Shown here piece by piece: positions 19,132 to 47,043 of a DNA stretch of 64,000 nt (its first letter is position 1; each line of letters opens with the position of its first letter). Location: assembly GCF_017874535.1 (NCBI RefSeq), contig NZ_JAGGLS010000006.1, positions 62,001 to 126,000 on the forward strand, given 5' to 3'. The translations under genes were made by a program, and so were the position numbers. Source of the stretch: Anaerococcus nagyae (GTDB taxonomy: Bacteria > Bacillota > Clostridia > Tissierellales > Peptoniphilaceae). Under the pieces are notes generated by a model that made no database searches, was not told where the DNA came from, and saw only the letters and a list, made by a program, of their open reading frames with translations.

Positions 19132-19320
19132 TCATAATAATATAGCAAATAGTAATAGAGGACCTACTACTATTAATAGACCTGGTAGAAATACCTTAAG
19201 TGCTGCTAAAAACATAGCTAGACGGTCGTTTTTTTCCAAATTATCCTCATCTAGTAGCAGCTCTTTTTGATAGATTTCTTCTTCACTTTTTCCTTCAAAT
19301 CTATCTATAGGCTTTTTCAT
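19132..19320 (-). CDS. Small single-pass membrane protein of the opp operon
   Basis: 62 residues: an acidic soluble N-terminus followed by one C-terminal hydrophobic helix (VFLPGLLIVVGPLLLFAILL). Its ATG overlaps the oppF stop as ATGA, so it is translationally coupled and belongs to the operon. Family and function unknown; perhaps an accessory subunit. Confidence 0.65.
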   Translation of the reverse strand: MKKPIDRFEGKSEEEIYQKELLLDEDNLEKNDRLAMFLAALKVFLPGLLIVVGPLLLFAILL

Positions 19321-20936: not shown

Positions 20937-21924
20937 CTTCTCTTTCCTTTCTATTTGGATAATGGCATCTGATTTTTTGATGTTCATTAAGTGCAACTAG
21001 CTCAGGCATTTGATTTACACATTTTTCTGTGGCAAAGCTACATCTATCTGCAAATTTACATCCTGGTGGTAAGTTTAGTGGATGTGGTACAGAACCAGGG
21101 ATTATATCAAGTCTTTGGTTCTTATCACTTGTTATAGATGGTATTGAGTTTAATAAAGCTACCGTATATGGATGGTTATAGTCTGTTATATCATGTTTAA
21201 ATATAAATTCTACTGGTGATTGCTCTACTATCTGTCCTGAATACATTACCGCAACTTCATCTGCCATTTGATTAATTACTCCAAGGTCATGGGTAATAAA
21301 AAGAATAGAGGTATTAAGTCTATGCTTTAAGTCATTCATAAGTCTTAGGATTTGAGCTTGTATAGTTACGTCTAGGGCTGTTGTAGGCTCATCTGCTATA
21401 AGAAGTTTGGGTTCACAAGCAAGAGCCATAGCAATCATTACCCTTTGGTTCATACCACCTGATAGCTCAAATGGATATTGTTTAGCTACTACATGCGGAT
21501 TAGGTATCTTTACAGATGCTAGGAGCTCTTCGCATCTTTTTGCTGCTTCGTGTTTGCTCATATGCCTATGGAGCATGAGTACTTCTGAAATTTGTTTTTC
21601 AACTGTAAATACTGGGTTTAGGGAGCTCATAGGTTCTTGGAAAATCATAGAGATTTCATTACCTCTTATCTTTTCCATTTGGCTACGACTATATTTAGTC
21701 ATATCCTCACCTTTATAGATGATTTCCCCTTCATATATCTTTTGATTAGGTTCAAATAACTGCAAAATACTCATAGCAGTTTGACTCTTACCTGAACCAG
21801 ATTCTCCTACAAGACCTAAGGTCTTTCCCTCATCTATAGTGAAAGAAACCCCATTAACAGCCTTAATAAGGCCTTTTCTTGTAGAGAAATATGTGTGAAG
21901 CTTGTTAATTTCTAGTAATCTCAT
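20917..21924 (-). CDS. oppD: Oligopeptide ABC transporter ATPase OppD
   Basis: 335 residues, standard length. Walker A GESGSGKSQ, signature LSGGMNQRVMIAMAL, Walker B LLIADEPTTALD. The C-terminal OppD/F domain contains LPPGCKFADRCSFA with the conserved Cys residues that can hold an iron-sulfur cluster in some members. It pairs with OppF. Starts after AGAGGAAAAG, eight bases from the oppC stop. Confidence 0.95.
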   Translation of the reverse strand: MRLLEINKLHTYFSTRKGLIKAVNGVSFTIDEGKTLGLVGESGSGKSQTAMSILQLFEPNQKIYEGEIIYKGEDMTKYSRSQMEKIRGNEISMIFQEPMSSLNPVFTVEKQISEVLMLHRHMSKHEAAKRCEELLASVKIPNPHVVAKQYPFELSGGMNQRVMIAMALACEPKLLIADEPTTALDVTIQAQILRLMNDLKHRLNTSILFITHDLGVINQMADEVAVMYSGQIVEQSPVEFIFKHDITDYNHPYTVALLNSIPSITSDKNQRLDIIPGSVPHPLNLPPGCKFADRCSFATEKCVNQMPELVALNEHQKIRCHYPNRKEREDGTYTR

Positions 21925-21932
21925 CTTTTCCT

Positions 21933-23909
21933 CTATCTCTCATTTGCTCTTGGATCTATAGCATCACGCATAGCATCACCTATAAGGTTTACTGAAAAAG
22001 ATGCTAAAAATACTGCAAGTACTGGGAATATCCATCTCCACCAGTAGATGTTAAGTACATCAGAGCTTTGTGCTGCTGTTAGCATATTACCCCAAGATGG
22101 TGTAGGTTCTTGAACACCAAAACCCAAAAATGATAAACCAGATTCTGTTAGTAAGTTTCCAGCATATCCTAAAGTTGCATTTACTATAACTATAGAAAGT
22201 ATATTTGGCAATATATGTTTTATCATTATAGACCAGTTTCTCACACCTAGGGCACGAGCAGCTGTAATATAATCACGTTCACGTTCTGCAAGTATTTGTC
22301 CACGTACAAGACGAGCAAGTCCTGTCCAACCAAGCAAACCTAAAAGTATCATTACCATAGTAATCCTCTTTGTTTGACTGGCTCCTGGCGGAAGTAGAGC
22401 TGATAAGGAGATAAGCATTGGATAAAATGGGAATGATGAAATAATTTCAGAAATTCTCATTAATACATTATCAACCTTACCGCCTGCAAAACCTGATATC
22501 ATACCAATTAATACACCCAGAACTACTTGGATCACTGTAGAAATAAGGGCAATTATCATAGTCATACGACCACCATGAATAAGTCTTGTAAAAATATCAC
22601 GACCTTGGTCATCTGATCCAAATCTAAATCCATTAAGACCCCAAGTTTTAATTCCACCTTCTTTTTCTACTGCATATTGATTGAAGTAAGAAGCATATAT
22701 TTGGTCAAATTCTCCTTCAGGAGCATTTAGCTCACCGTAATTATCCTTACCCCAAGTATAAATTTTTCCATTTTTATCAAGTGCAGTAAATGTTGTATCT
22801 CCACCTTGAATATCCACTATTGGAGCTTCAAATTTTGGTATCTTATCCCCAGTAAGTCCCGAACGAGAAGGACCCCATACAAAAAGTTCACCCTTATCAT
22901 CAAGTGCTGCTGCAGATGAACTAGATAAGGCTACTTTTTTGATAAAGTGTGACCCATCTGTTACTTCACTTGGCATAGCTGTTTGATTTTCCGCTCCCAT
23001 TACACCTAGTAATTGAACAGTACCATCTGTCTTTGCTACTATCATATTTATTGGAGAAGTGTCAAAATCTTCTACTTTGCCTTGAACATCTGATGGTATT
23101 AGATTAAGACGACTTGCCATTGTAGAACCCCAAACAACGATATTTTTCGCATTTGTTAGGACAACTGAATATTGAACACCTGCACCAAGTTTTTTTATAC
23201 CTTCGCTTTTGATTTGACTTTCTTGCATCTTTGGCATTTCAGTTTGTTGGAAAGAATTATTTCCCCAACCATATATTTCGTTATCTTCAGTTGCTACTAG
23301 TATATGTCTATCTCCTGCAGTAACATCGGTAACCTTTTTGCCATCGAGACCATCTTTTACCTTTTCAGGTATAGATATAATCTTATCTTCATTATCTGAT
23401 CCCCAAACATAAACATTGCCTTCTTTAGTAAGGCCGACAGCAAATGTATTACCTATGGATATTTTCTCAGTTCCTTCTTTTTCCATCTCTTTAGGGTAGT
23501 TCATGTAAGCTCCTCCTGGAGCTACATTAGTAAGATTACCTTGTGAATAATATTGATTAAATGGTAATATAGCACTCCCTACAAATACAATTAGGATAAT
23601 TGCTATAAACATTATAAGCCCAATAACACCAAGTGGATTTCTAAAGTAATTTCTGACAGCTACCTTACCTGGAGAAAGGATAGCTTCTTCTTTTAATTTG
23701 TCATTTTCATTATTTTGAGGATTTTGTCCCACATTTGTATTTGATCCATTTAAATTTTCACGAACATCTGGATCAAGTCTCTGATCTTCCGCTAATCTAG
23801 GCTCATTAGCCATATCAGGTGTATCACTTGAGAAAGTAAAACCCCTTAGGGCATATGATTTTAAAAACCTAGCATAAGATTTTATTGATTTATTAAAAGT
23901 TTTATTCAT
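21933..23909 (-). CDS. oppC: Oligopeptide ABC transporter permease OppC with extracellular RCC1-like repeat domain
   Basis: 658 residues, about twice the usual length. An N-terminal cytoplasmic tail (1-88) and TM1 (about 92-116) are normal for OppC. From about 145 to 430 there are seven repeats, each ending in a V-x-x-WG-like strand (NVYVWG, EIYGWG, NIVVWG, TVQLLG, ELFVWG, KIYTWG, GIKTWG). These are RCC1/BNR-style blades, enough for one seven-bladed propeller. The last repeat runs straight into GSDDQGRDIFTRLIHGG, the conserved start of the OppC core, which then holds the EAA loop (ITAARALGVRNWSIMIKHIL). The insert lies outside the membrane. Peptide capture or partner binding is inference. Confidence 0.93.
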   Translation of the reverse strand: MNKTFNKSIKSYARFLKSYALRGFTFSSDTPDMANEPRLAEDQRLDPDVRENLNGSNTNVGQNPQNNENDKLKEEAILSPGKVAVRNYFRNPLGVIGLIMFIAIILIVFVGSAILPFNQYYSQGNLTNVAPGGAYMNYPKEMEKEGTEKISIGNTFAVGLTKEGNVYVWGSDNEDKIISIPEKVKDGLDGKKVTDVTAGDRHILVATEDNEIYGWGNNSFQQTEMPKMQESQIKSEGIKKLGAGVQYSVVLTNAKNIVVWGSTMASRLNLIPSDVQGKVEDFDTSPINMIVAKTDGTVQLLGVMGAENQTAMPSEVTDGSHFIKKVALSSSSAAALDDKGELFVWGPSRSGLTGDKIPKFEAPIVDIQGGDTTFTALDKNGKIYTWGKDNYGELNAPEGEFDQIYASYFNQYAVEKEGGIKTWGLNGFRFGSDDQGRDIFTRLIHGGRMTMIIALISTVIQVVLGVLIGMISGFAGGKVDNVLMRISEIISSFPFYPMLISLSALLPPGASQTKRITMVMILLGLLGWTGLARLVRGQILAERERDYITAARALGVRNWSIMIKHILPNILSIVIVNATLGYAGNLLTESGLSFLGFGVQEPTPSWGNMLTAAQSSDVLNIYWWRWIFPVLAVFLASFSVNLIGDAMRDAIDPRANER

Positions 23910-23919
23910 ATTACCCCTC

Positions 23920-24882
23920 TTAAGCGTCTAATTTAACCCTTGGATCTACTAATGCGTAGGCTATATCCATTAACAAGTTTCCTAAAAGTGTAAGAACCGC
24001 ATAAAACATTGATAGGGCTAGTATGATATTGTAGTCTTGGGCCATAACAGCAGTTATAAGCTCATTACCAATTCCCCTATAAGAGAAAATTCTTTCTGTA
24101 ATAGCAGAACCAGAAAACATTCCAAGTATAGCCCAAGTAAGAGCTGTAACAACAGGAATTAAAGCATTTCTAAAAGCATGAGAATAAATAACTGTCTTTT
24201 CCTTAAGACCCTTAGATCTAGCTGTTCTTATATAATCCTGATTTAAAGCATCTATCATAGAATTTCTTACATATCTGGAAAGACCTGCAAGAGAACCTAT
24301 AGTTAAGGTTATAGTTGGAAGTGCTAAGTATCTAACCCATTGACCAAATGTATTTTCACGAGGCATACCATTGGCTGGCAACCATTTTAGTTTAAATGCA
24401 AAAATATAAATTAAAATTAGACCTATAAAAAATACTGGTATAGACATACCAATTAGAGTTAAAGTCTGGAAAGTCCTATCAAAAACCCCGCCTCTATGGG
24501 TGGCCGACCTTATACCTATAAGCACCGAAAGAATAAATGATATTATTGTAGAACCGAGATTTAGATAAATAGTGTTTTTAAGTGGTTCTCTTAGATATTC
24601 ACGTACGTCGCGTCTTACTCTTATAGACTCACCAAAGTCACCCTTTAGGGTTCTACCTAACCATCTAACATATTGTTCTGGTAGCGGTTTATCAAGACCA
24701 TAACGTTCTGATAAGGTTTGATATAATTCTTCTTGCTGAGCCTTGGTCATACGTGTACCCGTTGGCATCATTGCTTGGATAGGATCTCCAGGCATGGCCT
24801 TAGAAAAAGCAAAAAGCAAAATAGAGATTATAAGAGCTACTGGTATTAAGTTAATAATTCTCTTTACTATATAACGAAGCAT
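23920..24882 (-). CDS. oppB: Oligopeptide ABC transporter permease OppB
   Basis: 320 residues from the ATG at 24882, chosen because AGGAAGGGAAATT precedes it and OppB proteins characteristically begin MLRYIVKRI. Six membrane helices; the EAA loop is YIRTARSKGLKEKTVIYSHA. First gene of oppBCDF plus the small membrane gene, all tightly spaced. It forms the pore with OppC. OppA genes lie just upstream on the same strand beyond a MITE-like element. Confidence 0.95.
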   Translation of the reverse strand: MLRYIVKRIINLIPVALIISILLFAFSKAMPGDPIQAMMPTGTRMTKAQQEELYQTLSERYGLDKPLPEQYVRWLGRTLKGDFGESIRVRRDVREYLREPLKNTIYLNLGSTIISFILSVLIGIRSATHRGGVFDRTFQTLTLIGMSIPVFFIGLILIYIFAFKLKWLPANGMPRENTFGQWVRYLALPTITLTIGSLAGLSRYVRNSMIDALNQDYIRTARSKGLKEKTVIYSHAFRNALIPVVTALTWAILGMFSGSAITERIFSYRGIGNELITAVMAQDYNIILALSMFYAVLTLLGNLLMDIAYALVDPRVKLDA

Positions 24883-25145
24883 AATTTCCCTTCCTAGTTC
24901 ATATTTAAATTTCAATTATTCATTCCAATAAATTATTAAAATGTAAAATTTAAATAATAAATTTTATTAGTACTATATTATAATAATTCACAAATTTTGT
25001 CAAATAAAATACCGTTCTCAAACTCTAAATCATGGGATTATAGATGATTAATTTTTCTATTTTTTTTATTTCCCCAAAATATAATTATGCAATAATTTTT
25101 ATAAATACAAAATGATATATAATTTATTCATAACAAAAATCAAAA
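24883..25145. other. AT-rich non-coding gap upstream of oppB
   Basis: Very AT-rich, with no convincing gene. It must hold the oppB promoter unless transcription reads through from oppA. I saw no near-consensus -35/-10 pair. Confidence 0.4.
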
Positions 25146-25298
25146 GAGACTGTTGCAAAACTATAAATAATTATCGTCCCACTATTAGAAGGTCATCTTA
25201 GGAAATTTTTTTACATAGCCTGCCAACTAGTGAATACAAAATTTCCGTAGAAATTCTCTAATGATTTTGGGACGATTTATTCATTCTGCAACAGCCCC
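25146..25298. mobile_element. MITE-like element, GTTGCAAAA family, copy 3
   Basis: 153 bases, bounded by GAGACTGTTGCAAAACTATA and ATTTATTCATTCTGCAACAG. It carries the same inner arms as copy 2 (ATTAGAAGG... and ...TTCTCTAATGA) and a second inverted pair, TCGTCCCA / GGGACGA. Non-coding. It sits between the oppA stop and oppB and could act as a terminator or attenuator that separates binding protein from permease expression. Confidence 0.75.
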
Positions 25299-25311
25299 TA
25301 TTTAGTTAAAT

Positions 25312-27531
25312 CTATTTTGAAAGTGACATTGCGTTTATTTGATATGAAGCTGGCCACTGAGGTGTATTTATATCAAAACCCTGAACTCTATTTGTATACC
25401 CTGTGTGGTATTGATTAGAGTAAAGCGGTATTTCTGGTAGATAGTCGTTATACCATAATTGGAAGTCTTCCCATTTATCTAAGTATCCTTCTTTATCCTC
25501 TGGATCTGTCTTTCTAAGAGATTCTGTTACCTCATCGCCCTTAGAGTCGTTTGTCTTAGTATGGTTATCAAATCCTTTAGAGTTAAATTGATAGTATGGA
25601 TCGAATGGCGGTTCAAATGATTGTCCCATATTAAATGCTGTATATTCCGCATTTTCCGTTGGATTGTAGTAGTAGTCAAGCAATGTAGCAAAGCTTCCAG
25701 CTGTTACGTTATATTCCATACCTACTTGCTTAGCATTGTTTGGAACTTGATTAGAAATCAATGTAGTTATAGGTGATTCATCAGAACCATATTGATTTAC
25801 AACAAGTCTATCACCTTTTTCATCATATCTATAGTAGTCAAAGCCATCTGAATCTTTACTAAATAAATCATCAGCCTTTGACTTATCCCAAGCTGTCTTA
25901 CCATCAGATTCATACTTATATGGACTCTTATCTAATAATTCATTAGCTTCATCTAGGTTTAGTTGATAGTTTACTAATTCTGGATTGTTCTCGAGGTCTG
26001 CTCCTCTTTCCTTATACATCCATTGGCTAGTACCATACATGGCATTTGTTACTACACCATAACCACCTGCAAATTGTTGAACAAAAGAGTTTCTATCCAT
26101 AAGATGTGCTATAGCTTGTCTAACCTCTTTATATTGAGTTGAGCCTCTATCTGTTAAGAAAGCTACGTTGCCATAACCATTTCTATCATAAGTGTTGTAT
26201 TTAATTTTTCCTTCATCAGCGGCACTTCTCATATGTTCAATTTGTCCACCTTCAGTTTCATCTTGCCATATATCTATATTTCCATTTTCAAGAAGATCAA
26301 TTGCTATATTTTTATTTACAAACTGAACTATTACATGAGGAATGCTCGCTTTTTCACCTTTAAAATTTCCCTTGTAGTTTTCATTTAGAGAAAGTTTAGC
26401 CATATTATTAGAGTAACTATCAAATACATATGGCCCACATACTACTGATGGATTTAGCCTATATTCATTGGCTACTTTTAGCATAGCTTGTTCTTTAAGC
26501 TGCTGAATAGGATCTACATCAGCATTTAATCTTTCTTTAAGACTAGCTATTGCTTCATCATGAGCTTTTTGACTTTCCTCATCAACTTCAGAACCTTCAT
26601 TCTCCTCTTCAAATTGTTTATTTAAGTTTTCAATTTGCTTTTCAATAGATTCCTTATAAGCTTTCTTATCCTCTTCTGTAACCTCATAACCGTCTTTAAC
26701 TACAAGTTTTTTACCATTATCGCTTATTGATAAGTTATCAGTTACTACATGCATTGGGAATGGAACTTGTTGGGCTAAATAAGATTCTTCATAATAAGGC
26801 AAGAACGATGAGTCTATTGTTACCGAAAAAGTATAGTCATCAATTTTTTCAAGTCCTTCAAATTCCTCAGCAGGATTGCTAGTATCATGGAAAGCTTCAT
26901 AGCCTTTTAAAGAATCTTTACCTACTGCTGTAGCTCCAGTTACTGGTATGTATGATGAATCAGAGAATAATAAGCTATAAAATAGATAATCATCTGCTGT
27001 TACAGGCTTACCATCAGACCATTTCAAATCTTTGTTTAACTTATAAGTAATAGTTTTAGATCCATCTTCATTCTCAACTTTTTTAGGTTCTTCAGCAAGA
27101 ACTGTATCATTATTTACCCATTGTCCAGATTCATCCACTACTGCAGTAGCATAAGAATTAGTCCCTTCAGTACCTATAAGTCTTCTTACGATAACATCAT
27201 AAGAATTGTTAGACCATCCTTCAAAAAAGTCTCCACTCATCTCACTTGTACCAATTACAAGAGTATCATCTCCTGTTACATTGTTAAAGTCAGCAAGCTC
27301 TGCCTTATCTTTTTCAGAAAGGCCTTGTTTATCTTCTTCGTTTCCTAATTCAGTAGAATCTTCATCAATTTTTGAAGTATCTTCACTCTTAGATTCGTCT
27401 GTTTTTTCTACATCTGATTTCTTATCTTTTTCATCAGATGTATTTATTGAATCATTTCCTCCGCCACAGGCTGCTAAAGTTGTAGCAAGTCCTAAAGCCA
27501 TTAAAGAAGAAAAGACTTTTTTCATTTTCAT
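25312..27531 (-). CDS. oppA: Peptide-binding lipoprotein OppA, copy 1
   Basis: 739 residues, longer than typical OppA (about 540-600). Lipoprotein signal peptide with lipobox LATTLAACGGG, then an acidic Ser/Asp/Glu/Lys-rich linker (about 25-75), then a solute-binding family 5 domain (VIGTSEMSGDFFEGW onward; KWSDGKPVTADDYLF motif). A charged, probably helical insert occupies about 275-335. It would deliver peptides to OppBCDF. Start after GGAGGTTAGATT; strong promoter at 27562-27590. A close paralogue lies directly upstream. Confidence 0.93.
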   Translation of the reverse strand: MKMKKVFSSLMALGLATTLAACGGGNDSINTSDEKDKKSDVEKTDESKSEDTSKIDEDSTELGNEEDKQGLSEKDKAELADFNNVTGDDTLVIGTSEMSGDFFEGWSNNSYDVIVRRLIGTEGTNSYATAVVDESGQWVNNDTVLAEEPKKVENEDGSKTITYKLNKDLKWSDGKPVTADDYLFYSLLFSDSSYIPVTGATAVGKDSLKGYEAFHDTSNPAEEFEGLEKIDDYTFSVTIDSSFLPYYEESYLAQQVPFPMHVVTDNLSISDNGKKLVVKDGYEVTEEDKKAYKESIEKQIENLNKQFEEENEGSEVDEESQKAHDEAIASLKERLNADVDPIQQLKEQAMLKVANEYRLNPSVVCGPYVFDSYSNNMAKLSLNENYKGNFKGEKASIPHVIVQFVNKNIAIDLLENGNIDIWQDETEGGQIEHMRSAADEGKIKYNTYDRNGYGNVAFLTDRGSTQYKEVRQAIAHLMDRNSFVQQFAGGYGVVTNAMYGTSQWMYKERGADLENNPELVNYQLNLDEANELLDKSPYKYESDGKTAWDKSKADDLFSKDSDGFDYYRYDEKGDRLVVNQYGSDESPITTLISNQVPNNAKQVGMEYNVTAGSFATLLDYYYNPTENAEYTAFNMGQSFEPPFDPYYQFNSKGFDNHTKTNDSKGDEVTESLRKTDPEDKEGYLDKWEDFQLWYNDYLPEIPLYSNQYHTGYTNRVQGFDINTPQWPASYQINAMSLSK

Positions 27532-27561
27532 AATCTAACCTCCATAATTTATATTATTGAT

Positions 27562-27590
27562 ATTCTATTCTTAATTTTAACTTTTGTCAA
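27562..27590 (-). promoter_or_regulatory. Promoter of oppA copy 1
   Basis: On the minus strand TTGACA, a 17-base spacer and TAGAAT, 30 bases before the start codon. No hairpin or riboswitch is seen in the short leader. Confidence 0.75.
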
Positions 27591-27791
27591 TACTTTATAT
27601 GTTTTTTTATTTATATAATTGCATTCTTATACATTGTATTCGCTATAATTTAACGAATATATTTTTTCATTGTAATTTATTCCATAAACCTTTATCATAT
27701 TATAGCAATACTTTGTTAAAATAAACTGTTCTTTTATCACTCCGTGTAAAAGTAAACAAAATTTTTACTATTTCTAAAAATAGATATAAAA

Positions 27792-27817
27792 AAACAGCAG
27801 AATAAACTCTGCTGTTT
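27792..27817 (-). terminator. Intrinsic terminator of oppA copy 2
   Basis: AAACAGCAGA / TCTGCTGTTT with a six-base loop and a T7 tail on the minus strand. The two oppA genes are therefore separate transcription units. Confidence 0.85.
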
Positions 27818-27828
27818 AATAATCTCTA

Positions 27829-30054
27829 TTATTTTTCCAATGATAATGCATTGATCTGATCAGAGAATCCCCATGTTGGAGTACTTACATCAAATCCTTG
27901 AACTCTATTTGCATAAGCTGTGTGGTATTGATTAGAATAAAGTGGTATTTCTGGTAGATAGTCGTTGTACCAAAGTTCAAAATCTTCCCAATTATCTAGA
28001 TATCCTTCTTTATCCTTTGGATCTGTTTGACGTAATTTAACTGTCAACTCATCTGCTTTAGGATCATTTGTATGAGTCTTGTTATCATTACCCTTAGAAT
28101 TATATTGATACCATGGATCAAATGGTGTACCAAAATCTTGTCCCATATTGAATGCTGTATATTCTGGATCTTCTTCTTGTGTGTAATAATATTGAAGAAG
28201 TGTAGCAAAAGAACCAGCTGTTACATTATATTCCATACCTGCTTGTTTAGCGTTGTTTGGAAGTTGGTTAGAAATCAATGTAGTTATAGGTGATTCATCA
28301 GATCCGTATTGATTAACTACAAGCTTCTTGCCATTTTCATCATATCTATAATAATCAAAATTATCTGCGTCAGAGTTGAACGCTTCTTCTGCTTTTGCTT
28401 TATCCCAAGCAGTTTTACCATCAGATTCAAACTTATAAGGTGTTTTATCAAGTAATTCATTAGCTTTATCTATATTTAATTGATAATTTGTAAGTTTTCC
28501 TTCAAGATCAGCCCCTCTATCTTGATACATCCATTGACTAGTACCGTACATACCATTAGTTACTACACCGTAACCACCTGCATATGATTGGACGAAAGAA
28601 TTTCTATCTATTAAGTGAGCTATAGCTTGACGCACTTCTTTATACTTTGTATTTCCTCTATCCGTTAAGAAATTTATAGAACCATAACCATTTCTTTCAT
28701 AAGTATTGTATTTTATCTTACCAGCATCTGCTTCTGATCTGATTTGGTCAATCTTACCGCCATCAGTTTCTTTTTCCCAAACGTCAATGTCGCCATTTTC
28801 TACTAAGTCAACAGCTATATTTTGGTTTACATATTGAGCTATAATATGTGGTATAGTTGCCTTTTCACCCTTGAAGTTTCCAGCGTAGTTAGGGTTTAGA
28901 GATAACTTAACCATATTATTCTTGTATTCGTCAAATACATATGGTCCACAAACTACACTTGGAGCTAATCTATATTCATTAGTTATATTAAGCATAGCTT
29001 GTTCAAGAAGTTGTTGAGTAGGATCTACATCTCCGTTAAGACGATCTTCAAGCTCTTTTACTTGATCATCATGTTCCTTTTTAGCTTCATCATAAGCTGA
29101 TTTTTCATCTTCTGAAGCATCATCTGCTGGTTTTTCATTATTTTCTTCAAAATCTTTATCTAAATTGTCAATTTGTTCTTGAAGAGAATCTTTGTATTTT
29201 TGTTTTTCTTCTTCACTTGGTTCATAGCCATCTTTAGCTACTAGTTTGTTACCTTCTTCATTAAGAATAAGGTTTTCACTTACTACATGTAATGGAAGTG
29301 GATCTAACGCTGCTAAAGATACTTCTTCATAGTATGGTAAGAATGAGCTATCTATTGTAGATTCGAAAGTATAATCATCAATTTTCTTTAAACCTTCGAA
29401 TGTATCACTTTTACCTAAATGATAATCTTCATATCCTTTTAAGGCATTTGAACCAATTCTTGTAGATCCAGTTACTGGTATAAATGATGGGTGAGAATAT
29501 ATTAATGAATCATATAAATAATCATCAGCAGTGATTTCTTTTCCATCTGACCATTTCAAACCTTTTTTAATCTTATAAGTATATGTTCTAGAACCATCTT
29601 CATTGTCTGTAACTTTTGGATCTTCTTCAAGAACGGCTTTATTATTTACCCAAGCACCAGTTTCATCTTGAACTACTGTTCTATAGCCATTATTACCTTC
29701 TATACCAAGAAGTCTTCTGACTTGTACGTCGGATGTGTTGTTTTGCCAACCTTCTAGGAAGTCTCCAGAAAATTCTCCGATACCTAAAACTATAGTATCA
29801 TCGCTTGTTTGAGCATCGAAGTCTTCAAGTTCTTTTTGATCTGCTGCATTTTGTTCGCCTTCTTTTCCATCAGCTGTTTTATCATCTGCATTATCAGCAT
29901 CTTGACTATCATCTTTTTTATCTTCTGTCGCAGAATCCTTAGTCTTTGAATCATCTTTTGATTTTTTTGCTGAATCTGTATCTCCTCCACATGCCACTAG
30001 GGTTGTTGCAAGTCCTAAAGCCATTAAGGAAGAAAAAACTCTTTTCATTTTCAT
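27829..30054 (-). CDS. oppA: Peptide-binding lipoprotein OppA, copy 2
   Basis: 741 residues, colinear with copy 1 along its whole length, including the identical start of the signal peptide (MKMKRVFSSLMALGLATTL), lipobox VACGG, the KWSDGKEITADDYLY motif and the C-terminal GFDVSTP segment. The acidic linker (25-75) and the charged insert (about 275-340) are the most divergent parts. It arose by tandem duplication; different peptide preferences are likely but cannot be read from sequence. Its own promoter and terminator allow separate control. Confidence 0.93.
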   Translation of the reverse strand: MKMKRVFSSLMALGLATTLVACGGDTDSAKKSKDDSKTKDSATEDKKDDSQDADNADDKTADGKEGEQNAADQKELEDFDAQTSDDTIVLGIGEFSGDFLEGWQNNTSDVQVRRLLGIEGNNGYRTVVQDETGAWVNNKAVLEEDPKVTDNEDGSRTYTYKIKKGLKWSDGKEITADDYLYDSLIYSHPSFIPVTGSTRIGSNALKGYEDYHLGKSDTFEGLKKIDDYTFESTIDSSFLPYYEEVSLAALDPLPLHVVSENLILNEEGNKLVAKDGYEPSEEEKQKYKDSLQEQIDNLDKDFEENNEKPADDASEDEKSAYDEAKKEHDDQVKELEDRLNGDVDPTQQLLEQAMLNITNEYRLAPSVVCGPYVFDEYKNNMVKLSLNPNYAGNFKGEKATIPHIIAQYVNQNIAVDLVENGDIDVWEKETDGGKIDQIRSEADAGKIKYNTYERNGYGSINFLTDRGNTKYKEVRQAIAHLIDRNSFVQSYAGGYGVVTNGMYGTSQWMYQDRGADLEGKLTNYQLNIDKANELLDKTPYKFESDGKTAWDKAKAEEAFNSDADNFDYYRYDENGKKLVVNQYGSDESPITTLISNQLPNNAKQAGMEYNVTAGSFATLLQYYYTQEEDPEYTAFNMGQDFGTPFDPWYQYNSKGNDNKTHTNDPKADELTVKLRQTDPKDKEGYLDNWEDFELWYNDYLPEIPLYSNQYHTAYANRVQGFDVSTPTWGFSDQINALSLEK

Positions 30055-36033: not shown

Positions 36034-36999
36034 CTAGTATTTTAATGCCTCCATTGTTTGTATTAGGCCATTTACATTCATTTTTGAAGGACGAATGTAT
36101 CCTAATTCTTCTTTTGCTCTATCAATAGCTTCTGCTACTTCTGGTCTGCTATCTCCACGTCTTTTTGCCTTCTTTAGATCTGCTAAAAGTTCTTTCAATT
36201 TATCAATTTCATTTGGCATTGCTCTTTCATCTTCATTACTTAGAGCTACTGCTACAGCTTGATCTAGTCTATCTGATAATTGATAAATTTCTAGAACTGT
36301 TGCTTGTGGACGTAATCTACCATTTGTAATCTCAGCTACTTCCTTATCCAATTCTTTAATTACATAAGTTGGTTTATTTTTTAATTCATTATATTTCATG
36401 AATCTTGCCTTGTGAAGTTTAACATCTAGATCACTTCTTACATACATATTTGCTGTATCATTTAGGCCCATTTCTGGATAAGATAATAGTTTTGCCTTTA
36501 ATACTTCAAATTTTGCCATGTAAGCTTTCATATCTTCTACTGTATGAAATGGTGATGCTGCTATGACTAAGCCTTCAAATACGTATTCAGCTATTTCTGC
36601 ATGGGCATCATCAACTTTGTATCTTAGTTGTGTTGTTGCAAATCTAATTGCTCTACCAACTCTACCTAATACTAATAATCTTTGCGGAATTGATGCTGGG
36701 TCATATAGGTCAGCAGCACTAAATCCTTGTGAAGATTTTTCTATATTATCTTCAATTTCTAATGTTTTTGAGTTAAATTCATCTACCATTTCTTTATCTT
36801 GGTCATCTGTGATATTTAGTGAATTAACTTCATCTCTCATTGACCTAATTTGTTGTTTATATACTTCTGCCTCATCCATTGTAAGACTATTTGTTTCTTC
36901 TGGTGTATCTACTATAATATTTGAAGCAAATGTTGGAGCAATATGTCCAAATGTTAGTGTTATTGCTAGGGCTGATGCAAAAATTTTATTAAGTTTCAT
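36034..36999 (-). CDS. CAMP-factor-family secreted protein (short form)
   Basis: 321 residues. Signal peptide 1-26 (cleavage after TFA), an acidic helical region (30-95), then a CAMP-factor domain (about 97-260). It shows DPASIPQRLLVLGRVGRAIR, ATTQLRYKVDDAHAEI and LLSYPEMGLNDTANMY, the hallmarks of streptococcal and cutibacterial CAMP factors. Those proteins are secreted pore-forming co-haemolysins that bind host membranes. A C-terminal helical tail follows. It starts 12 bases after the preceding gene, so it is in one operon with the larger CAMP protein and probably the protease. Toxic activity is inferred from family only. Confidence 0.85.
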   Translation of the reverse strand: MKLNKIFASALAITLTFGHIAPTFASNIIVDTPEETNSLTMDEAEVYKQQIRSMRDEVNSLNITDDQDKEMVDEFNSKTLEIEDNIEKSSQGFSAADLYDPASIPQRLLVLGRVGRAIRFATTQLRYKVDDAHAEIAEYVFEGLVIAASPFHTVEDMKAYMAKFEVLKAKLLSYPEMGLNDTANMYVRSDLDVKLHKARFMKYNELKNKPTYVIKELDKEVAEITNGRLRPQATVLEIYQLSDRLDQAVAVALSNEDERAMPNEIDKLKELLADLKKAKRRGDSRPEVAEAIDRAKEELGYIRPSKMNVNGLIQTMEALKY

Positions 37000-37010
37000 T
37001 TATTTCTCCT

Positions 37011-38774
37011 TTAATTAAAAGCTAATTCTATATCTTGACTGATATCTTTTATATTGACTGTGCCTGATAATTCTTTTTGCCATGTTGGTATATCAAAGCC
37101 TGTATATTTTTTAACTGCCTTCCCATTTTTTAGATATATTCTATTGTTTATAGTTTTATTTCCGTAAAAAAGTGTAATATCGCATGGACCATTGTAAGCC
37201 TTGTCATTTTCCATAGCTTCTACACTAATAGTAAATACTCCTGCATTCCTTGGTGAAATCTCAATATTTGTAATAGAATAAGTTTTTTCCACTTCTTTTT
37301 CGGCTATGTTTACTTTTATAGATTTTTTTATACCATTTACACTTGTTGCTGTTACTTCTGTATTACCAGGGTTAAGGGCTGTTATATTTCCATTTTCATC
37401 TATACTTGCTATATCTGGATTAGAAATATCATAAGTAAGAGTCTTATCACTTACTCTTTCTGGAAATACTAGAACCTTTTGTCCTAGTGGATAAGTTTCA
37501 CCTAATTTCATTTCAACAGATCCTACTGTAAATGATATATCATTTACTTCATCGGAATTATTTTTAACTAATTTTTCCTGTTTATCTGTATCTTTTTTTG
37601 CACTTAAATATTGATCATTTGCACCAGTTGGTTCTAGCATTGGTAGGCTTGTTGGTTCACCTGGATTTAGGATTTGTAATTCAAAATCTTTTGTTATTCC
37701 GTTATCTAAAGCCATAACAGTGATAATTACATTACCTGTTTTTAGAGGAATGATTTCATTGCCTATAACACGAGCTACATATGGGTTTGATGAGTAAATT
37801 ATATAATCTTTATTTTTTACCTCTGCTGGCATGATTACAGGTCTTATCTTTGTTTTATTATCTATGTTGATAGCTCCTGCTCCACCTTCCATAAATTCGA
37901 TTTTTTCTGCTCTAATTTTAGGTCCAGCAACTTTTTCTATAGCTAATATTAATTTTTCCTCTTCTTCATCAAGCTCTCCACAAGTGACGGTGATTCTCCA
38001 CCATAATCCTGCTGCTTTGGATATTTCCTTATCCAATTCTCTAGCTTGAAATTTTCTACCTGTTCTATTAGCATCATTTCTTACCTTGCGAGCTTCTCTT
38101 ATAGTTCTATGATAAGCAGCCTTTTTATAAATGGTTGCTATATCTTCTGGTGATAGATCAGGATATGATAGAAGTTCTTGCTCTAAAGCTTCAAATTTTT
38201 CTATGTATTCCATGATTTGACTTTCACTCGCAAATGGATTAGCAGCATATACTATTCCTGTTAGTATATATTCAGTCAGCTTTGTATGAGCTGCTATAAT
38301 CTTATTTGATAATTCAGTACTACCAAACCTTATTGCTCTACCTATTCTTATTAAAAGTTGAACTCTAACTGGAATAGTTGTTAAATCATAGATGCTTCCT
38401 TCTGCTAGTCCACCTTGACGAGATAGCGTTCCGTTTTCTACACCTTGTTCATAATCGTCTATTTCTAGACCCACTGTTCTTACTGCCTCATTAAATTGTT
38501 TTAAGCATTCTTCATACTTTTCATCGGCAGCTTCTACTCCTTCTACTGACTTTTGTGCTTTAGTTAGTTCTTCTCTAACTTCTGCAATTTCTAGCTTTTG
38601 TTGGTCTGATCCGATATTAGTATCTACTGTTATGCCTGGTTTTCTTTCTCTAATCAATGTATCCTCATTGATTTCAAGATTATTTGCATAAGCAATAGAA
38701 CTGATACCTGGAGCTACTGCCAAACTTGACATTAGAAGTACAAGAGCTATGGCAACATTTTTGCTCTTTTTCAT
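37011..38774 (-). CDS. CAMP-factor domain fused to Ig-like (Big_2) domains and a novel C-terminal domain
   Basis: 587 residues. Signal peptide 1-30 (after AYA). CAMP-factor domain about 120-290 (TTIPVRVQLLIRIGRAIRFG, AANPFASESQIMEYIEKFEA, LLSYPDLSPEDIATIYKKAA). Two bacterial Ig-like modules follow (about 300-375 and 415-495; SNPDIASIDENGNITALNPG is Big_2). The last 90 residues are a domain also present twice at the end of the neighbouring protease. The fusion suggests a CAMP protein held at the cell surface or delivered by adhesion modules. Located 56 bases downstream of the protease gene; start after GGGAGGGAAAT. Confidence 0.85.
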   Translation of the reverse strand: MKKSKNVAIALVLLMSSLAVAPGISSIAYANNLEINEDTLIRERKPGITVDTNIGSDQQKLEIAEVREELTKAQKSVEGVEAADEKYEECLKQFNEAVRTVGLEIDDYEQGVENGTLSRQGGLAEGSIYDLTTIPVRVQLLIRIGRAIRFGSTELSNKIIAAHTKLTEYILTGIVYAANPFASESQIMEYIEKFEALEQELLSYPDLSPEDIATIYKKAAYHRTIREARKVRNDANRTGRKFQARELDKEISKAAGLWWRITVTCGELDEEEEKLILAIEKVAGPKIRAEKIEFMEGGAGAINIDNKTKIRPVIMPAEVKNKDYIIYSSNPYVARVIGNEIIPLKTGNVIITVMALDNGITKDFELQILNPGEPTSLPMLEPTGANDQYLSAKKDTDKQEKLVKNNSDEVNDISFTVGSVEMKLGETYPLGQKVLVFPERVSDKTLTYDISNPDIASIDENGNITALNPGNTEVTATSVNGIKKSIKVNIAEKEVEKTYSITNIEISPRNAGVFTISVEAMENDKAYNGPCDITLFYGNKTINNRIYLKNGKAVKKYTGFDIPTWQKELSGTVNIKDISQDIELAFN

Positions 38775-38830: not shown

Positions 38831-41656
38831 TTAGTTCATACTATAAGCAACACTTGATTGAGTATTGACAACTTTTAAGCTAGTTACAAAATCTTTTTTC
38901 CAAACTCCAAAATCACCTCCAGAATATCTAATACTAGCTTTGCCATCTTTAAAATTCACAGTATTTATTCTTGTTGTCCCTTCAGATATTGTTTCTACAA
39001 TACCCATGCCATTATAAAGATTTCCATCTTCAAAAGCTTCAAACGATAAAGTAAAAAATCCATTTTCTCGTTGTCCCACTTTTATATCACCAAGTTCATA
39101 TTGTTTTTGAGTAAGACCAACAACTTTTTTAGGATATTCTCTTATAAAAGCTTCTGACTTATTATCCTTAGAGAATTCATAAGATATATGATCCTCTATA
39201 TCACGTAGTTTTAGATCTGTTTGAAAGTTAGTTCTCCAAACACCAAATTGTCCACCATTATATGTGATACTAGCTTCTCCATTTTTAAAGTAAAGTGTTG
39301 ACGTTTTTTCTACTAGCTTATCTTCTTTATTGCCAGCCCTAGTTGTAATAGTTGCAGGACCTTGATATCCCACTCCATTTTGACTGGCTTTAAGGCTTAT
39401 AGTGAAATATCCACTTTTTCTTTGTGATACATCAAATCCATCTAATTCAACCGGATAATTTTCAAAGTTTGGTAGTACCCTTACGTTTACTGATTTTTTT
39501 ATATTGTTATTTGTTTTAACAGTTAATGTAGTTTTTCCTACAGATTTTGCTGTAACTAGACCATTTTTATCGATATTTGCTATTTCTGGATTTTTTGATT
39601 CATAAGTGAATTCTCTTTTAGCAGTATCTGGATAAACTGTAATCTTTTCTGATAGGTCTAAAGTTTCACCTTCCCTTAGGCTTGCTTGAGGAATTTTTAT
39701 AGACATATTTCTTATAATGTAAGGATCTTCATATGGCTTTGGAGGATCCGGGAATTTTTCCCCATTATCTATTTCTCCATTCTCATACAATTCGTTATCC
39801 CCTACCACAGGTATTTCACTTAATTTGTCATAACGTAAATTTTCTGGAATTATTTCAAGGTTAAATCTAGATCTTAGAATTCCACGAGAAACTCTTGTTT
39901 CTACTAATATATTTGCCGTTCCAACTTTTTTAGGAACTATCACTCCATCTGCTTTTACATCTACTATATCTGTATCTAAAGTGTAGATCTTTATGGCTAC
40001 GTTTTCTATATCTTTAGGTTCAATTATTGGAGTTAGTTTTCCTTTTTTATTTATTCTTAGATAACCACCAGCTCCTTCTGCAACACTTATATTTTTAACC
40101 TCTTTAACAGGTTCTGGAGTGTTAGGATCTACTGGTAATTCATCATCTCCTATAACTTCACCTGTTGTAGTAATAGCCTTTAGGCATACATTTGCTCCTT
40201 TTAGTTCGCTTGAAAGATCAGTCCATTTTTTACCATCACTTGATACAAAAGATTGACCAGGTTCCGAATCTGCTTTGGATGAAAAATTATTTATTCTTGC
40301 TTCAACTGCTAGAGGATATTTGTAATTTGCCTTTGATGAATCTAGATATGCCATCACAGCAAATTGTTCACCTTCCTCTAATTCCATTTGACTAATATCA
40401 ATTGTATAATATCCTGGATATTGTAAAGTTCCTGAAGCCACTTCTACTTTTTCACTATCTAATTGGCTAGTCCTTTCAATATTTCTTACTACATATAGTT
40501 TATAATCTGTATACATACTTACATTGAAAATTCCAATTTCGTGAAGAGTTTCTTTACCATCTGACTTAAAGATATTACACATATATCCTTGTTTATTATA
40601 GCCTACAGATCTAGTAGCACCTAGTGGATCATATTGGTAAATATGCCCATTAGGATCTTTTTTCTTGGGTATAAAACAAGCATTAGATTTACCTGCATAA
40701 ACATCTTCATAGGATACATAATAGTATCCATTATCCATATAGGAAGATCCCCATGAATTCTTACAAATCCATGCACCATTCGCCTTTGGCTTGATTGAGA
40801 ATAATTCTTTTGGGAAGGTATCATCCCAACCAACTATAGTAACTGCATGATCATCGCTGCCCCCACCTGGGTTAAAGTAGCTATTATTTTTAGCATTTTC
40901 GTAGTACTTTGAACTATTGATAGTTGTATAAACACCACCGTATTTCATAATAGTTTGTTTGATATCCGTAGTATCTACAAAATTGTACACATCTGGTAGA
41001 TATAAAACTTTATCAATGTCTAAGACCCTATCTACATCTGTTGGAGATACTGATATTACTGGATCATACATATCGTCTTTTTCATCAACAGGACCTGACC
41101 ATCTAGCCATATATGCTGCAGCTATATCCCTATTTCCACCATCATTTGGACCCCAGTCAAATCCATGGGTATTTCTAAGATGCTTTTCTGAAAAATCAAA
41201 TTTTCCATATTTACTTAAAACTGACTCCATAGAACCATATGTAGCAAAAGCCCAACATGAACCATTTTTTCCTTGATTTTTAACAGGTGATACTCTATTA
41301 TGATCTCTAAGATCATATTTTTCTGGTAAATTTGAAGATTTGGATCTTGTCCTTGTCTTTATATAATCAAAATTTACATCTAATGGAGATACCTTATTAC
41401 CAGACTTTTGAGCTGCCTTAAATTCATCTGATATCGGGCTTACTTCTAGTATTTCATTCTCATCTTTTGAGTCTTGGTAGATATCTGTAGGATCTGGAGC
41501 TATTTCTAGCTGAGGAATAAGTTCTGCTTCTTGCTTTTCTTGTGTGCTAACTGAACTATCAGCTTTTTGATCCGTAGCTAAGGCTGGATCGGCTTGGAAT
41601 ATTAGTGATCCCATAACCAATAGAGCGAATAGATTTTTTAAGTACTTCTTTTTCAC
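38831..41656 (-). CDS. Secreted papain-like (C1A) cysteine protease with lectin-like and Ig-like domains
   Basis: 941 residues. Signal peptide 1-27 (after ALA), a pro-region, then a C1A domain (about 110-335): Cys134 in NQGKNGSCWAFA, His270 in DDHAVTIVGWDD, Asn300 in CKNSWGSSYMDNGYYYVSY, so the triad is intact. A C1-associated lectin-like domain (about 340-500) and an Ig-like module (510-600) follow. A Big_2 module (about 645-730) comes next, and two copies of a novel C-terminal domain (735-830, 850-941) end the protein. No LPXTG is seen. The start is GTG, preceded by GAAGGAAATC. It heads the operon with the two CAMP-type genes, downstream of a peptide/regulator pair. Confidence 0.92.
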   Translation of the reverse strand: MKKKYLKNLFALLVMGSLIFQADPALATDQKADSSVSTQEKQEAELIPQLEIAPDPTDIYQDSKDENEILEVSPISDEFKAAQKSGNKVSPLDVNFDYIKTRTRSKSSNLPEKYDLRDHNRVSPVKNQGKNGSCWAFATYGSMESVLSKYGKFDFSEKHLRNTHGFDWGPNDGGNRDIAAAYMARWSGPVDEKDDMYDPVISVSPTDVDRVLDIDKVLYLPDVYNFVDTTDIKQTIMKYGGVYTTINSSKYYENAKNNSYFNPGGGSDDHAVTIVGWDDTFPKELFSIKPKANGAWICKNSWGSSYMDNGYYYVSYEDVYAGKSNACFIPKKKDPNGHIYQYDPLGATRSVGYNKQGYMCNIFKSDGKETLHEIGIFNVSMYTDYKLYVVRNIERTSQLDSEKVEVASGTLQYPGYYTIDISQMELEEGEQFAVMAYLDSSKANYKYPLAVEARINNFSSKADSEPGQSFVSSDGKKWTDLSSELKGANVCLKAITTTGEVIGDDELPVDPNTPEPVKEVKNISVAEGAGGYLRINKKGKLTPIIEPKDIENVAIKIYTLDTDIVDVKADGVIVPKKVGTANILVETRVSRGILRSRFNLEIIPENLRYDKLSEIPVVGDNELYENGEIDNGEKFPDPPKPYEDPYIIRNMSIKIPQASLREGETLDLSEKITVYPDTAKREFTYESKNPEIANIDKNGLVTAKSVGKTTLTVKTNNNIKKSVNVRVLPNFENYPVELDGFDVSQRKSGYFTISLKASQNGVGYQGPATITTRAGNKEDKLVEKTSTLYFKNGEASITYNGGQFGVWRTNFQTDLKLRDIEDHISYEFSKDNKSEAFIREYPKKVVGLTQKQYELGDIKVGQRENGFFTLSFEAFEDGNLYNGMGIVETISEGTTRINTVNFKDGKASIRYSGGDFGVWKKDFVTSLKVVNTQSSVAYSMN

Positions 41657-41817
41657 GATTTCCTTCTTTCAATTTGTTATTTAGGGTTTGATATAAACTG
41701 CCGATAAGGCCATATACTTTATAGTTATTGATAGATTAAATTTATAATTTATCTACAGAAGTTAAAATTTATTCAGATGATATATACATAGTGATAGAAT
41801 TTTAATATCAAATTGTC

Positions 41818-41835
41818 TATGAATATAAGTGCATA
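41818..41835. promoter_or_regulatory. Imperfect palindrome upstream of the protease operon
   Basis: On the minus strand TATGCA, six bases, TTCATA, about 165 bases before the protease start. It is reminiscent of PlcR-type boxes (TATGNA...TNCATA) but the spacing differs by two bases. A possible -35 (TTGATA) lies just downstream. Candidate operator for the adjacent regulator; chance cannot be excluded. Confidence 0.25.
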
Positions 41836-41873
41836 TCCTAGCAAATCACTACGATATATTGTTAAAAAGAAAT

Positions 41874-41891
41874 AAAGACACAATGGTCTTT
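41874..41891 (-). terminator. Short terminator after the peptide gene
   Basis: AAAGAC / GTCTTT with a six-base loop, followed on the minus strand by ATTTCTTTTT. It separates the peptide gene from the protease operon. Confidence 0.55.
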
Positions 41892-41918
41892 ATAATGTAA
41901 AGTTTATAAAACTTAGTT

Positions 41919-42095
41919 TTAATAAATAGATATAGGCTCAACTTCTGAAGTAATCCTATAAATTGATATAGGTTCAGTCTCTGGATTTCTAGAATAAGTT
42001 ATCATATTATCTTTAGCTTGTAATTTTGCACTTGAAAATATAGTAAGAGTAAAAATTAATAAGGTACATAATTTTTTTATATTTTTTCTTCTCAT
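41919..42095 (-). CDS. Candidate exported signalling peptide precursor with duplicated EPISIY
   Basis: 58 residues from the ATG at 42095, chosen because AAAGG lies nine bases upstream; an ATG three codons earlier overlaps that site. The N-terminus RRKNIKKLCTLLIFTLTIFS is a Sec signal with cleavage likely after LQA. The short tail holds TEPISIY, then a seven-residue spacer (RITSEVE overlaps the second copy) and a final EPISIY at the C-terminus. Small size, export signal and C-terminal repeats are as in precursors of RRNPP signalling peptides (PapR, cCF10). It lies just downstream of an RRNPP-like regulator, like papR after plcR. Function is inferred. Confidence 0.6.
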   Translation of the reverse strand: MRRKNIKKLCTLLIFTLTIFSSAKLQAKDNMITYSRNPETEPISIYRITSEVEPISIY

Positions 42096-42138
42096 ATCTA
42101 TCATCCTTTCAACTATAATTATATATTACTAACAAAAA

Positions 42139-42170
42139 AAAGTAACCCCACAGTTTTGTGGGGTTACTTT
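42139..42170 (-). terminator. Strong terminator at the end of the regulator gene
   Basis: 14-base perfect stem AAAGTAACCCCACA / TGTGGGGTTACTTT with a four-base loop and a T8 tail on the minus strand. The regulator stop codon is inside the stem. The peptide gene downstream thus depends on read-through or a promoter between 42096 and 42138. Confidence 0.9.
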
Positions 42171-43063
42171 TCTTCTAATATTGAGGATACATTTTTTCTT
42201 ATAATAAGTTTCAATTCAGGCTTAGCTAACAAGTCACATAGGACTAAAGATTTTTCTATATCTTCACTAAAAGAAGTTTCATTTAGTTTAAATTTACTAA
42301 TCCCAATTAAGTAGTAAACCAATATTATTCTCCTATAATTATTAGTTTTAGAACTTATATCTATAGCTTTTTGGCAAATATTTATTGATTCTTTATAATT
42401 TTTTTGTATGTAATTGTATTTAGATAAATTATATAATATATCTATATAATTTATATCTGTAACCTCTATGTTCTCAGCTAGATAATCTAAAATAAGTTTT
42501 GAATTAGCTTCAAAATTATTATAAAAGTAATATTCTGATAATTTTATTAATATTCTTTTCTCTATATCACTATATGAATTTTTAAATCCTTTTTCTAGAG
42601 ATTTACCATTAATCTCTAAGGCTTTTAATAAACAGTTACGAAAAGTTAGATAATCTTTCTTTATATCCTTCTCATATATACCTTCATAATATAATATATA
42701 TTGCATAAGTTTTTTTTCATATGATGAGGGAATAAAATCTTTTAATTTTTTAAGCTTATCAATATTGGTATGCAAATTATCTAAAGAAAGATTTTCTAAA
42801 TCATTGTCTATGATCTTGATCTGTTTGTTAATCAAATTCCATGAAGAACCACTATCATCCATTAAAATAATCTCAAAATCTATACCCAAAACATCAAGAA
42901 TTTCTAAAAAATTATCTACTCGTGGATTATTATGGTTGTTTTCGATTCTTCTAAGACTCTCTTCAGAAATTCCAACCATAAGAGATAAATCCTTTTGAGA
43001 AATATTTCTACTTTTCCTAATTCTTCTAATTTCACTACCTATAAAGCTATAGTCATAAGACAT
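42164..43063 (-). CDS. HTH/TPR regulator of RRNPP (Rgg/PlcR-like) type
   Basis: 299 residues. The N-terminal XRE-type HTH (about 7-62: EIRRIRKSRNISQKDLSLMV, then GISEESLRRIENN) is followed by an all-helical region (about 85-299). That region has TPR-like pairs such as YIDILYNLSKYNYIQKNYKE and SINICQKAIDISSKTNNYRR. This is the layout of cytoplasmic receptors that bind re-imported peptides and switch DNA binding. The next gene downstream encodes a candidate signal peptide, and beyond that lies the protease/CAMP operon. Start after GTAAAGGAGGAGCAA. An unrelated HTH-TPR regulator is the alternative. Confidence 0.78.
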   Translation of the reverse strand: MSYDYSFIGSEIRRIRKSRNISQKDLSLMVGISEESLRRIENNHNNPRVDNFLEILDVLGIDFEIILMDDSGSSWNLINKQIKIIDNDLENLSLDNLHTNIDKLKKLKDFIPSSYEKKLMQYILYYEGIYEKDIKKDYLTFRNCLLKALEINGKSLEKGFKNSYSDIEKRILIKLSEYYFYNNFEANSKLILDYLAENIEVTDINYIDILYNLSKYNYIQKNYKESINICQKAIDISSKTNNYRRIILVYYLIGISKFKLNETSFSEDIEKSLVLCDLLAKPELKLIIRKNVSSILEEK

Positions 43064-43248
43064 TTGCTCCTCCTTTACATGCTATATCTTATAGTATAGG
43101 ATTTTAATCATAATTATCTTACCAACAATAAACGATTTTACAAATAATCTATAAAAGTTTTTAATTTCTTATAACGAATTGTTACATTTTTACAATAACG
43201 TAGTATTATGATAAATTTTTCAGCTATTATATACTATTAAAAAATTAT

Positions 43249-43264
43249 TGTTTCATGTGAAACA
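43249..43264. promoter_or_regulatory. parS-like site
   Basis: TGTTTCATGTGAAACA differs by one central base from the Firmicutes parS consensus TGTTNCACGTGAAACA and is extended by AT at each end. It lies about 15 kb from dnaA, within the origin domain where ParB (Spo0J) loads. No parA/parB gene is in the window. Confidence 0.6.
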
Positions 43265-46843: not shown

Positions 46844-47043
46844 TCATCTAAAATCTTATATTCTATAGTAAACTAAATATAAATTATAATAATCCACATT
46901 TATGTGTATTGTAATTATATATAAAAAATATTATTATATTAAATAACAAATCATAGGAGATGAAGATATAAATTAAATAATATTATATTAGTTGGTTATT
47001 TATTAGGGGAATATTTTAAAGTAATTAAAACAGAGAAAAAGTA

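Follow-up and report, generated by a model that had tools for sequence, protein, structure and literature searches.

A PlcR-like regulator and its probable signal peptide with repeated EPISIY motifs in Anaerococcus nagyae

On contig 6 of the 1.75-Mb genome of Anaerococcus nagyae (G000), a gene for a regulator with a helix-turn-helix (HTH) and a tetratricopeptide repeat (TPR) domain is followed by a small gene whose product contains the hexapeptide EPISIY twice. The locus raises the question whether the two genes form a peptide quorum-sensing pair of the RRNPP type (Rap, Rgg, NprR, PlcR, PrgX), as had been proposed in an earlier note on this DNA. The locus was analyzed within a stretch of 64,000 nucleotides of this contig, called the window, and was compared with a set of 31 genomes of the genus Anaerococcus (G-numbers) and with the loci around regulator-type open reading frames (ORFs; L-numbers). 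It was found that the two genes very probably constitute a PlcR/PapR-like pair of the RRNPP type, with an activator and positive feedback. The gene order, the conservation at the protein level, the predicted PlcR-like fold, a conserved asparagine and a palindrome at a fixed spacing form the basis for this reading.

The regulator gene (42164..43063, minus strand) encodes a protein of 299 amino acids (aa), and the propeptide gene (41919..42095, minus strand) begins 68 nt past the regulator stop codon. The N-terminus of the propeptide is rich in lysine and arginine, hydrophobic and signal-like; here and below signal-like N-termini were scored with a hydropathy rule and not with SignalP. The first EPISIY copy is encoded at 41958..41975 and the second, C-terminal copy at 41922..41939 (both minus strand), and the protein ends with ...ETEPISIYRITSEVEPISIY. 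With 58 codons and its positively charged and hydrophobic N-terminus the gene has the properties of a small adjacent precursor, as expected for RRNPP(A) systems. The earliest ATG, at 42104, would yield a protein of 61 aa, while translation from the ATG at 42095 yields 58 aa. The latter is the conserved start, because the sequence AAAGG abuts the ATG at 42104 and this ATG is missing from two related loci (L035, L036). The description of a regulator followed by a 58-residue precursor with two EPISIY copies was thus accurate. The precursor had no match in Pfam and none above the cut-off in NCBIfam; its best NCBIfam match was PhrA_Strep (E 0.026, 14.7 bits compared with a cut-off of 40), which covered the signal region only.

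Homologues of the propeptide with E ≤ 0.004 were present in only four of the 31 genomes, i.e., G000, G012, G014 and G024. The same four genomes contain a regulator that is at least 69% identical, and the peptide gene is always located directly 3′ of it, so that the two-gene arrangement of the window recurs in three related genomes, at L035 (A. octavius, G014), L036 (G012) and L037 (G024). Seven further genomes yielded only weak matches, with E-values of 0.07–0.4 at best. The numbers of EPISIY copies per precursor were two, two, two and four. A degenerate DNA pattern for EPI-x-IY, with S, T, C, R, W or a stop codon at position x, was run on all 31 genomes and gave 16 matches. Ten of them encode EPISIY, and all ten are located inside the four homologous peptide genes, while the other six have T, C or a stop codon in the serine position. 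The ten copies vary at five codons and only at third bases; the minimum of seven nucleotide changes consisted of seven synonymous ones, the chance of which is 2.7e-5 in a simple model with equal single changes. In the first 21 codons of the precursor, pairs of species differed by 4–9 codons with and 0–6 codons without an amino acid change. The hexapeptide is thus conserved as protein in 10/10 copies, while the spacers between the copies drift, and in a protein alignment that included a paralogue (L038) the start methionine, one leucine and PISIY were the only invariant parts. In G014 and G012 the copies are 24 residues apart and not 12, and HGSNAVY or HELITAC replaces a middle copy, which reads as a decayed repeat. 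The decay of the middle repeat next to intact outer copies points to selection on the hexapeptide rather than on the precursor.

The regulator contains an HTH_3 domain at residues 12–64 (Pfam, E 2.5e-14), and its TPR matches were all under the Pfam cut-offs. In the structural model the fold of the full-length protein is predicted to be PlcR-like, including both the HTH and the TPR part, and PlcR was the nearest protein both in fold and in sequence. With 299 aa, HTH_3 and the modeled TPR fold, the protein falls within the range of RRNPP(A) receptors (250–500 aa). N212 of the regulator aligns with N201 of PlcR; this conserved asparagine of the TPR domain makes the contact to the backbone of the peptide and is present in 33/35 aligned regulators. 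A mobile-element origin was considered and rejected, since no match was found in 72,556 plasmid and 50,697 phage records and no relative in viral contigs among 193 candidate stretches; this is a weak negative, as absence from such collections has little weight. A parS-like sequence, TGTTTCATGTGAAACA, is located 5′ of the regulator (window 43249-43264, plus strand); TGTTNCAYGTGAAACA had a single other match in the genome (contig 6, 130632), and A. octavius (L035) carries TGTTTCACGTGAAACA 5′ of its regulator. In G018 a regulator of the same family is broken by stop codons and followed by a 56-aa frame and ATP-binding cassette (ABC) transporter genes (L042, 9885-10801, minus strand).

For the wider family 46 regulator-type ORFs were counted, after exclusion of ORFs below 250 or above 345 aa, C-terminus duplicates, and L055-L060, which are the same loci under public names, such as Anaerococcus octavius NCTC9810 (L055), Anaerococcus sp. 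mt242 (L056) and Anaerococcus sp. 9403502 (L057). A peptide gene was scored when a small ORF at a distance of at most 350 nt 3′ of the regulator had a Shine-Dalgarno sequence and a signal-like N-terminus. This applied to 16/46 regulators compared with 5/258 control ORFs, whereby orthologues were counted singly although they are not independent of each other, and the controls were other long ORFs of the same loci, uncurated and including antisense frames. One of the 16 positives (L078, with a TTG start) is probably spurious, and for eight further full-length distant regulators that were examined no convincing candidate for a peptide gene was seen. A tree built from 35 regulators placed the five members with an EPISIY or PISIY peptide in one clade (100/98) and eight members with a second type of peptide in another one (100/100), so that the peptide tails co-vary with the regulators. 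The fifth PISIY member, L038 in G012, has a regulator with 46% identity and a 37-residue peptide ending with IPISIYSL. At this locus (6523-10142, minus strand) the regulator, the PISIY peptide, a circular-bacteriocin precursor (PF09221, class IId) and a SpoIIM-family membrane protein are encoded in a row, which is possibly a bacteriocin cluster under peptide control.

The second peptide family comprises eight orthologous PlcR-like pairs (L043, L045-L050, L052), and its peptides are unrelated to EPISIY. It is cited here as the tree clade, as a tree label based on a crude pattern had split it. The peptides have 40–51 aa, a signal-like N-terminus and a region like DxxIIDxFY, and their genes always begin 83–84 nt past the regulator stop codon with a 6-base Shine-Dalgarno match. 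The genome of the window also contains such a regulator (L043, 9830-10741, minus strand, contig 10 of G000). In a third clade four regulators are located beside lactococcin-972-like genes, for one of which (L002) the Pfam match to Lactococcin_972 was checked. A sister-clade regulator at L039 (7374-9123, minus strand) stands beside a gene for a 41-aa exported peptide, which precedes PqqD-like and radical S-adenosylmethionine (SAM)/SPASM genes; this peptide may act as a signal or be the precursor of a modified peptide, and it is missing from the close relatives L040 and L041.

The region between the two genes contains a perfect hairpin (42142..42167, minus strand; stem GTAACCCCACA/TGTGGGGTTAC), which was identified by reading of the sequence and folding. 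Both the stop codon of the regulator gene and a CAC-N6-GTG palindrome (42149..42160, minus strand), a candidate operator of the regulator, are part of the hairpin stem. L035, L036 and L037, the three nearest relatives, have exactly the same 26-nt core, CCCCACAAAACTGTGGGGTTACTTTT. The palindrome was found within 60 nt of the regulator stop codon at 13/46 loci, which are exactly the five PISIY and the eight second-family pairs, and at 0/33 other regulators; the background was 26 of 6442 sixty-base tiles in 20 stretches (L035-L054, pair loci included). In the window a TATAAT, the predicted −10 element of the peptide promoter (42118..42123, minus strand), is located 31 nt from the palindrome center, and this distance to the best-scoring −10 hexamer was found in 12 of the 13 loci, the exception being L043 with 34 nt, or 29 nt with an alternative hexamer. 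The palindrome center would be at about −43 relative to the predicted start. The recognition helices of 12/13 regulators with the palindrome have the core SEE[ST], compared with 0/22 others in the alignment, and L038 reads NIES.

The extended pattern CAC-N6-GTG-N25-TATAAT had 11 matches in the 31 genomes and none in the controls. Five are the promoters of the PISIY-family peptide genes; the others are found beside broken regulator-like frames (G009, G013), before a 490-aa HTH protein (G001), before a 57-aa membrane protein (G012), and overlapping opposite-strand genes (G023, G025), which gave no clear regulon across the 31 genomes. The second-family pattern YMCACN6GTGTATTD had 16 exact matches in the same set, nine intragenic and seven intergenic. 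Four of the latter are located in leaders of pairs and three before exported-protein frames, in each case in a genome with a second-family pair. As only 4/8 of the family's own leaders match, the true site must be looser than this pattern. The hexamer at +31 of the three extra sites is TATTAT (5/6) once and TAATAT (4/6, with TG before) in two others, those of G027 and G029, which are near-copies and count as one. A palindrome of the second-family type, TCCACATTTATGTGTATTG, is also present in the window (46895-46906, plus strand) with TATTAT at +31, and about 140 nt past it lies an exported-protein frame (47044-47622, plus strand), open apart from two in-frame TGA codons. Lone intergenic palindromes at window position 45845 and L036 16806 were not taken as support, having no −10 element at +31, and the one at L035 9410 was not counted either.

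For the pair itself we infer the following course of export, maturation, import and binding, together with the direction of regulation and the targets. The propeptide would leave the cell via Sec, with cleavage by signal peptidase. Each repeat would then be processed by extracellular proteases to EPISIY or to a somewhat longer peptide, so that several copies per precursor would yield a higher signal dose. The peptide would re-enter the cell via an oligopeptide permease and bind to the regulator in its TPR groove, and this complex would activate transcription at the CAC-N6-GTG palindrome just 5′ of the peptide promoter, resulting in positive feedback.

Candidates for the importer and for further outputs are encoded nearby. 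Oligopeptide permease genes (19317..30054, minus strand) for two ATPases, two permeases and two OppA-type binding proteins are present in the window, and these binding proteins are the genome's only two PF00496 matches (E ≤ 0.001). In an OppC-type permease of 658 aa (21933-23909, minus strand) the N-terminal domain is separated from the transport domain by RCC1-like beta-propeller repeats (PF13540, three stretches); the permease has a homologue in G012 with 85% identity over 659 aa, and the neighboring ATPase (19317-20996) has a split ABC domain. Behind the pair follow genes for a papain-family protease of 941 aa with lectin-like and Ig-like domains (38831..41656; Peptidase_C1 1.7e-24, Lectin_like 1.3e-43; signal-like N-terminus by eye) and for two CAMP-factor domain proteins of 587 aa (37011..38774; PF07373 8.2e-28) and 321 aa (36034..36999; PF07373 8.6e-22), all on the minus strand. 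BLAST homologues of the protease(s) and the CAMP-factor proteins are located behind the pair in all four EPISIY loci; Pfam domains were determined for one L036 protein in addition to the three of the window. By their synteny these genes would most likely be further outputs. Their direct control via the palindrome was rejected, as no intergenic site precedes them in the window or in L035-L037. On the other side, 5′ of the regulator, an ABC ATPase and a 469-aa membrane protein are encoded (43639-45688, minus strand), the ATPase having its best NCBIfam match to a lantibiotic-protection type, under the cut-off; homologues are present in L036 (G012) and absent from the 20-kb stretches L035 (G014) and L037 (G024).

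Several points weigh against an activating pair with an operator at the palindrome. A peptide gene was not detectable at 30/46 homologous regulators, among them L040 and L041, two of the three sister-clade members. The earlier note had regarded such regulators as evidence against a pair, and further out this is partly the case, while within the EPISIY/PISIY clade 5/5 members have the gene. The combination of CAC-N6-GTG and a TATAAT −10 element occurs once in the genome of the window, at the peptide gene, and thus no wider regulon was revealed. The −10 hexamers were picked by score, and the orthologues behind the spacing count are not independent. The case for regulation of the protease and CAMP-factor genes is one of synteny, because no intergenic palindrome is found upstream, and a weak terminator-like hairpin with a T-rich tail (41861..41893, minus strand; −6.3 kcal/mol, z −2.4), for which counterparts were seen by eye in the three relatives, separates them from the peptide gene. 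In the EPISIY loci the palindrome also forms the stem of a strong hairpin, which offers another explanation for its conservation there: it could be a transcription terminator and no operator, and the regulator would bind elsewhere. In the window the hairpin has a free energy of −26.9 kcal/mol including an extension by A/T runs (z −6.6) and is followed by eight T, in accordance with an intrinsic terminator; across the four EPISIY loci stretches of about 50 nt fold with values between −15.7 and −26.9 kcal/mol, and four to eight T follow the hairpin; the core at L038 has −9.1 kcal/mol. A consensus terminator scan reported two sites in 41000-44000, neither of which is one of these two hairpins, and the intergenic one was probably missed because the A-rich stretch before the stem pairs with the T run. 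The strong terminator that had been postulated between the genes fits the window best, since the T tract is shorter in the relatives, with six T in L037 and only four in L035 and L036. In the second family, however, the core forms a weak hairpin (−1.4 to −6.4 kcal/mol), and nevertheless the half-sites are kept in 8/8 and the 31-nt spacing in 7/8 loci, which makes a role of the palindrome at the DNA level likelier there. The three intergenic sites of the second-family form before exported-protein frames also argue against a mere terminator, and this explanation is considered possible but somewhat doubtful.

Even a genuine ligand of the RRNPP type could act with the opposite sign, by inhibiting a repressor, as with Rap and PrgX, or by relieving repression of the peptide gene by the regulator. 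The sign does vary among these systems, PlcR and NprR being activated and Rap and PrgX inhibited by their peptides (PMC3601957). Both the nearest fold and the nearest sequence are those of PlcR, an activator, and a palindrome centered at about −43 is easier to reconcile with an activator site than with a roadblock covering the −10 element, so that repression appears unlikely. The peptide could also be an exported product with another job, e.g., bacteriocin-like or a protease substrate or inhibitor, that is simply encoded beside an HTH-TPR regulator. Protease genes do adjoin the pair, and homologous regulators stand beside bacteriocin genes, i.e., Lactococcin_972 at L002 and the class IId circular bacteriocin at L038. 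Yet at L038 the PISIY peptide is encoded by a separate short gene before the bacteriocin gene, the conservation is limited to the hexapeptide between drifting spacers, and tails that track the receptor clade are what is predicted for a ligand; another job is thus very improbable. Taken together, the reading of the two genes as a PlcR-like RRNPP pair is backed by the homologous pairs, the conservation of EPISIY, the tails that follow the clades, the predicted fold, the TPR asparagine, the Opp-type genes and the conserved hairpin.

It is conceivable, if somewhat less likely than not, that a network of PlcR-like receptors has evolved within Anaerococcus itself. Two or more receptor-peptide families that separated long ago and have unrelated peptides would share one promoter code, CAC-N6-GTG centered 31 nt before the −10 element, and the common helix core SEE[ST], and would drive their own pheromone genes and scattered exported proteins, including bacteriocins, with the dose in one family tuned by gain and loss of 12-residue repeats. 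Should the two genes indeed form a PlcR-like signaling pair, quorum sensing by such peptides would operate in a common, little-studied human-associated genus, with genes for a protease, CAMP factors and bacteriocins nearby. The four species would offer a natural series (2, 2, 2 and 4 copies, two of them with a decayed middle repeat) for the processing of multi-copy pheromone precursors, a question raised in the discussion of PMC9765709, and the EPISIY hexapeptide is readily synthesized for assays.

A text search, which covered few subscription journals, found no paper on Anaerococcus with RRNPP quorum sensing or with PlcR, and the string EPISIY was found only in an unrelated paper about BLAST E-values (PMC13395823). 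RRNPPA genes are reported almost wholly from Bacilli (PMC9765709), while RRNPP pairs have been predicted more widely, including a single candidate antimicrobial cluster from the genome of a member of the Peptoniphilaceae (PMC10075063); "Anaerococcus" does not occur in the main text of the latter, and an overlap with its supplementary tables, which were outside the search, is possible. The locus resembles the RRNPP_detector candidates outside Bacilli and Qsr/QssR of Clostridium in its small precursor, Sec signal, TPR receptor of 250–500 aa and adjacent genes. The system is classed here as an RRNPP system of the PlcR type, a type of mechanism that is already known. The full-length fold, HTH included, is that of PlcR in the model, and the protease and CAMP-factor neighborhood would parallel the secreted-protein regulon of PlcR (PMC2464732), here by synteny. 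It is not PlcR/PapR proper of the Bacillus cereus group, because a PlcR box and a PapR-type peptide were looked for and not found. The genus is a different one, the identity is about 20%, and EPISIY in 10/10 copies takes the place of the PapR heptapeptide ADLPFEF (PMC6568020). The PlcR box TATGNAN4TNCATA was absent from −1500 to +9000 of the regulator stop codon in the window and L035-L037, the range searched, which have the CAC-N6-GTG palindrome instead; a 6-spaced variant, TATGCACTTATATTCATA, at +328 in the window was dropped as chance, as it is not present in L035-L037. Two to four signal copies per precursor are a further difference to PlcR/PapR of this group. The doubling of the motif, which the earlier note had called unusual, is not new in kind: up to six pheromone copies are described for propeptides of AimR, NprR, PlcR and Rap (PMC9765709), and two duplicated Phr propeptides, Phr3T and Phr105, have been studied (PMC11343458). 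As in these precursors with several identical or nearly identical signals, the release of internal copies requires cleavage at both ends (PMC9765709, PMC11343458). In contrast to the Phr3T/Phr105 type, the precursors described here belong to another receptor subfamily and genus, and their copy number varies from two to four among related species, two of which have a decayed repeat in the middle.
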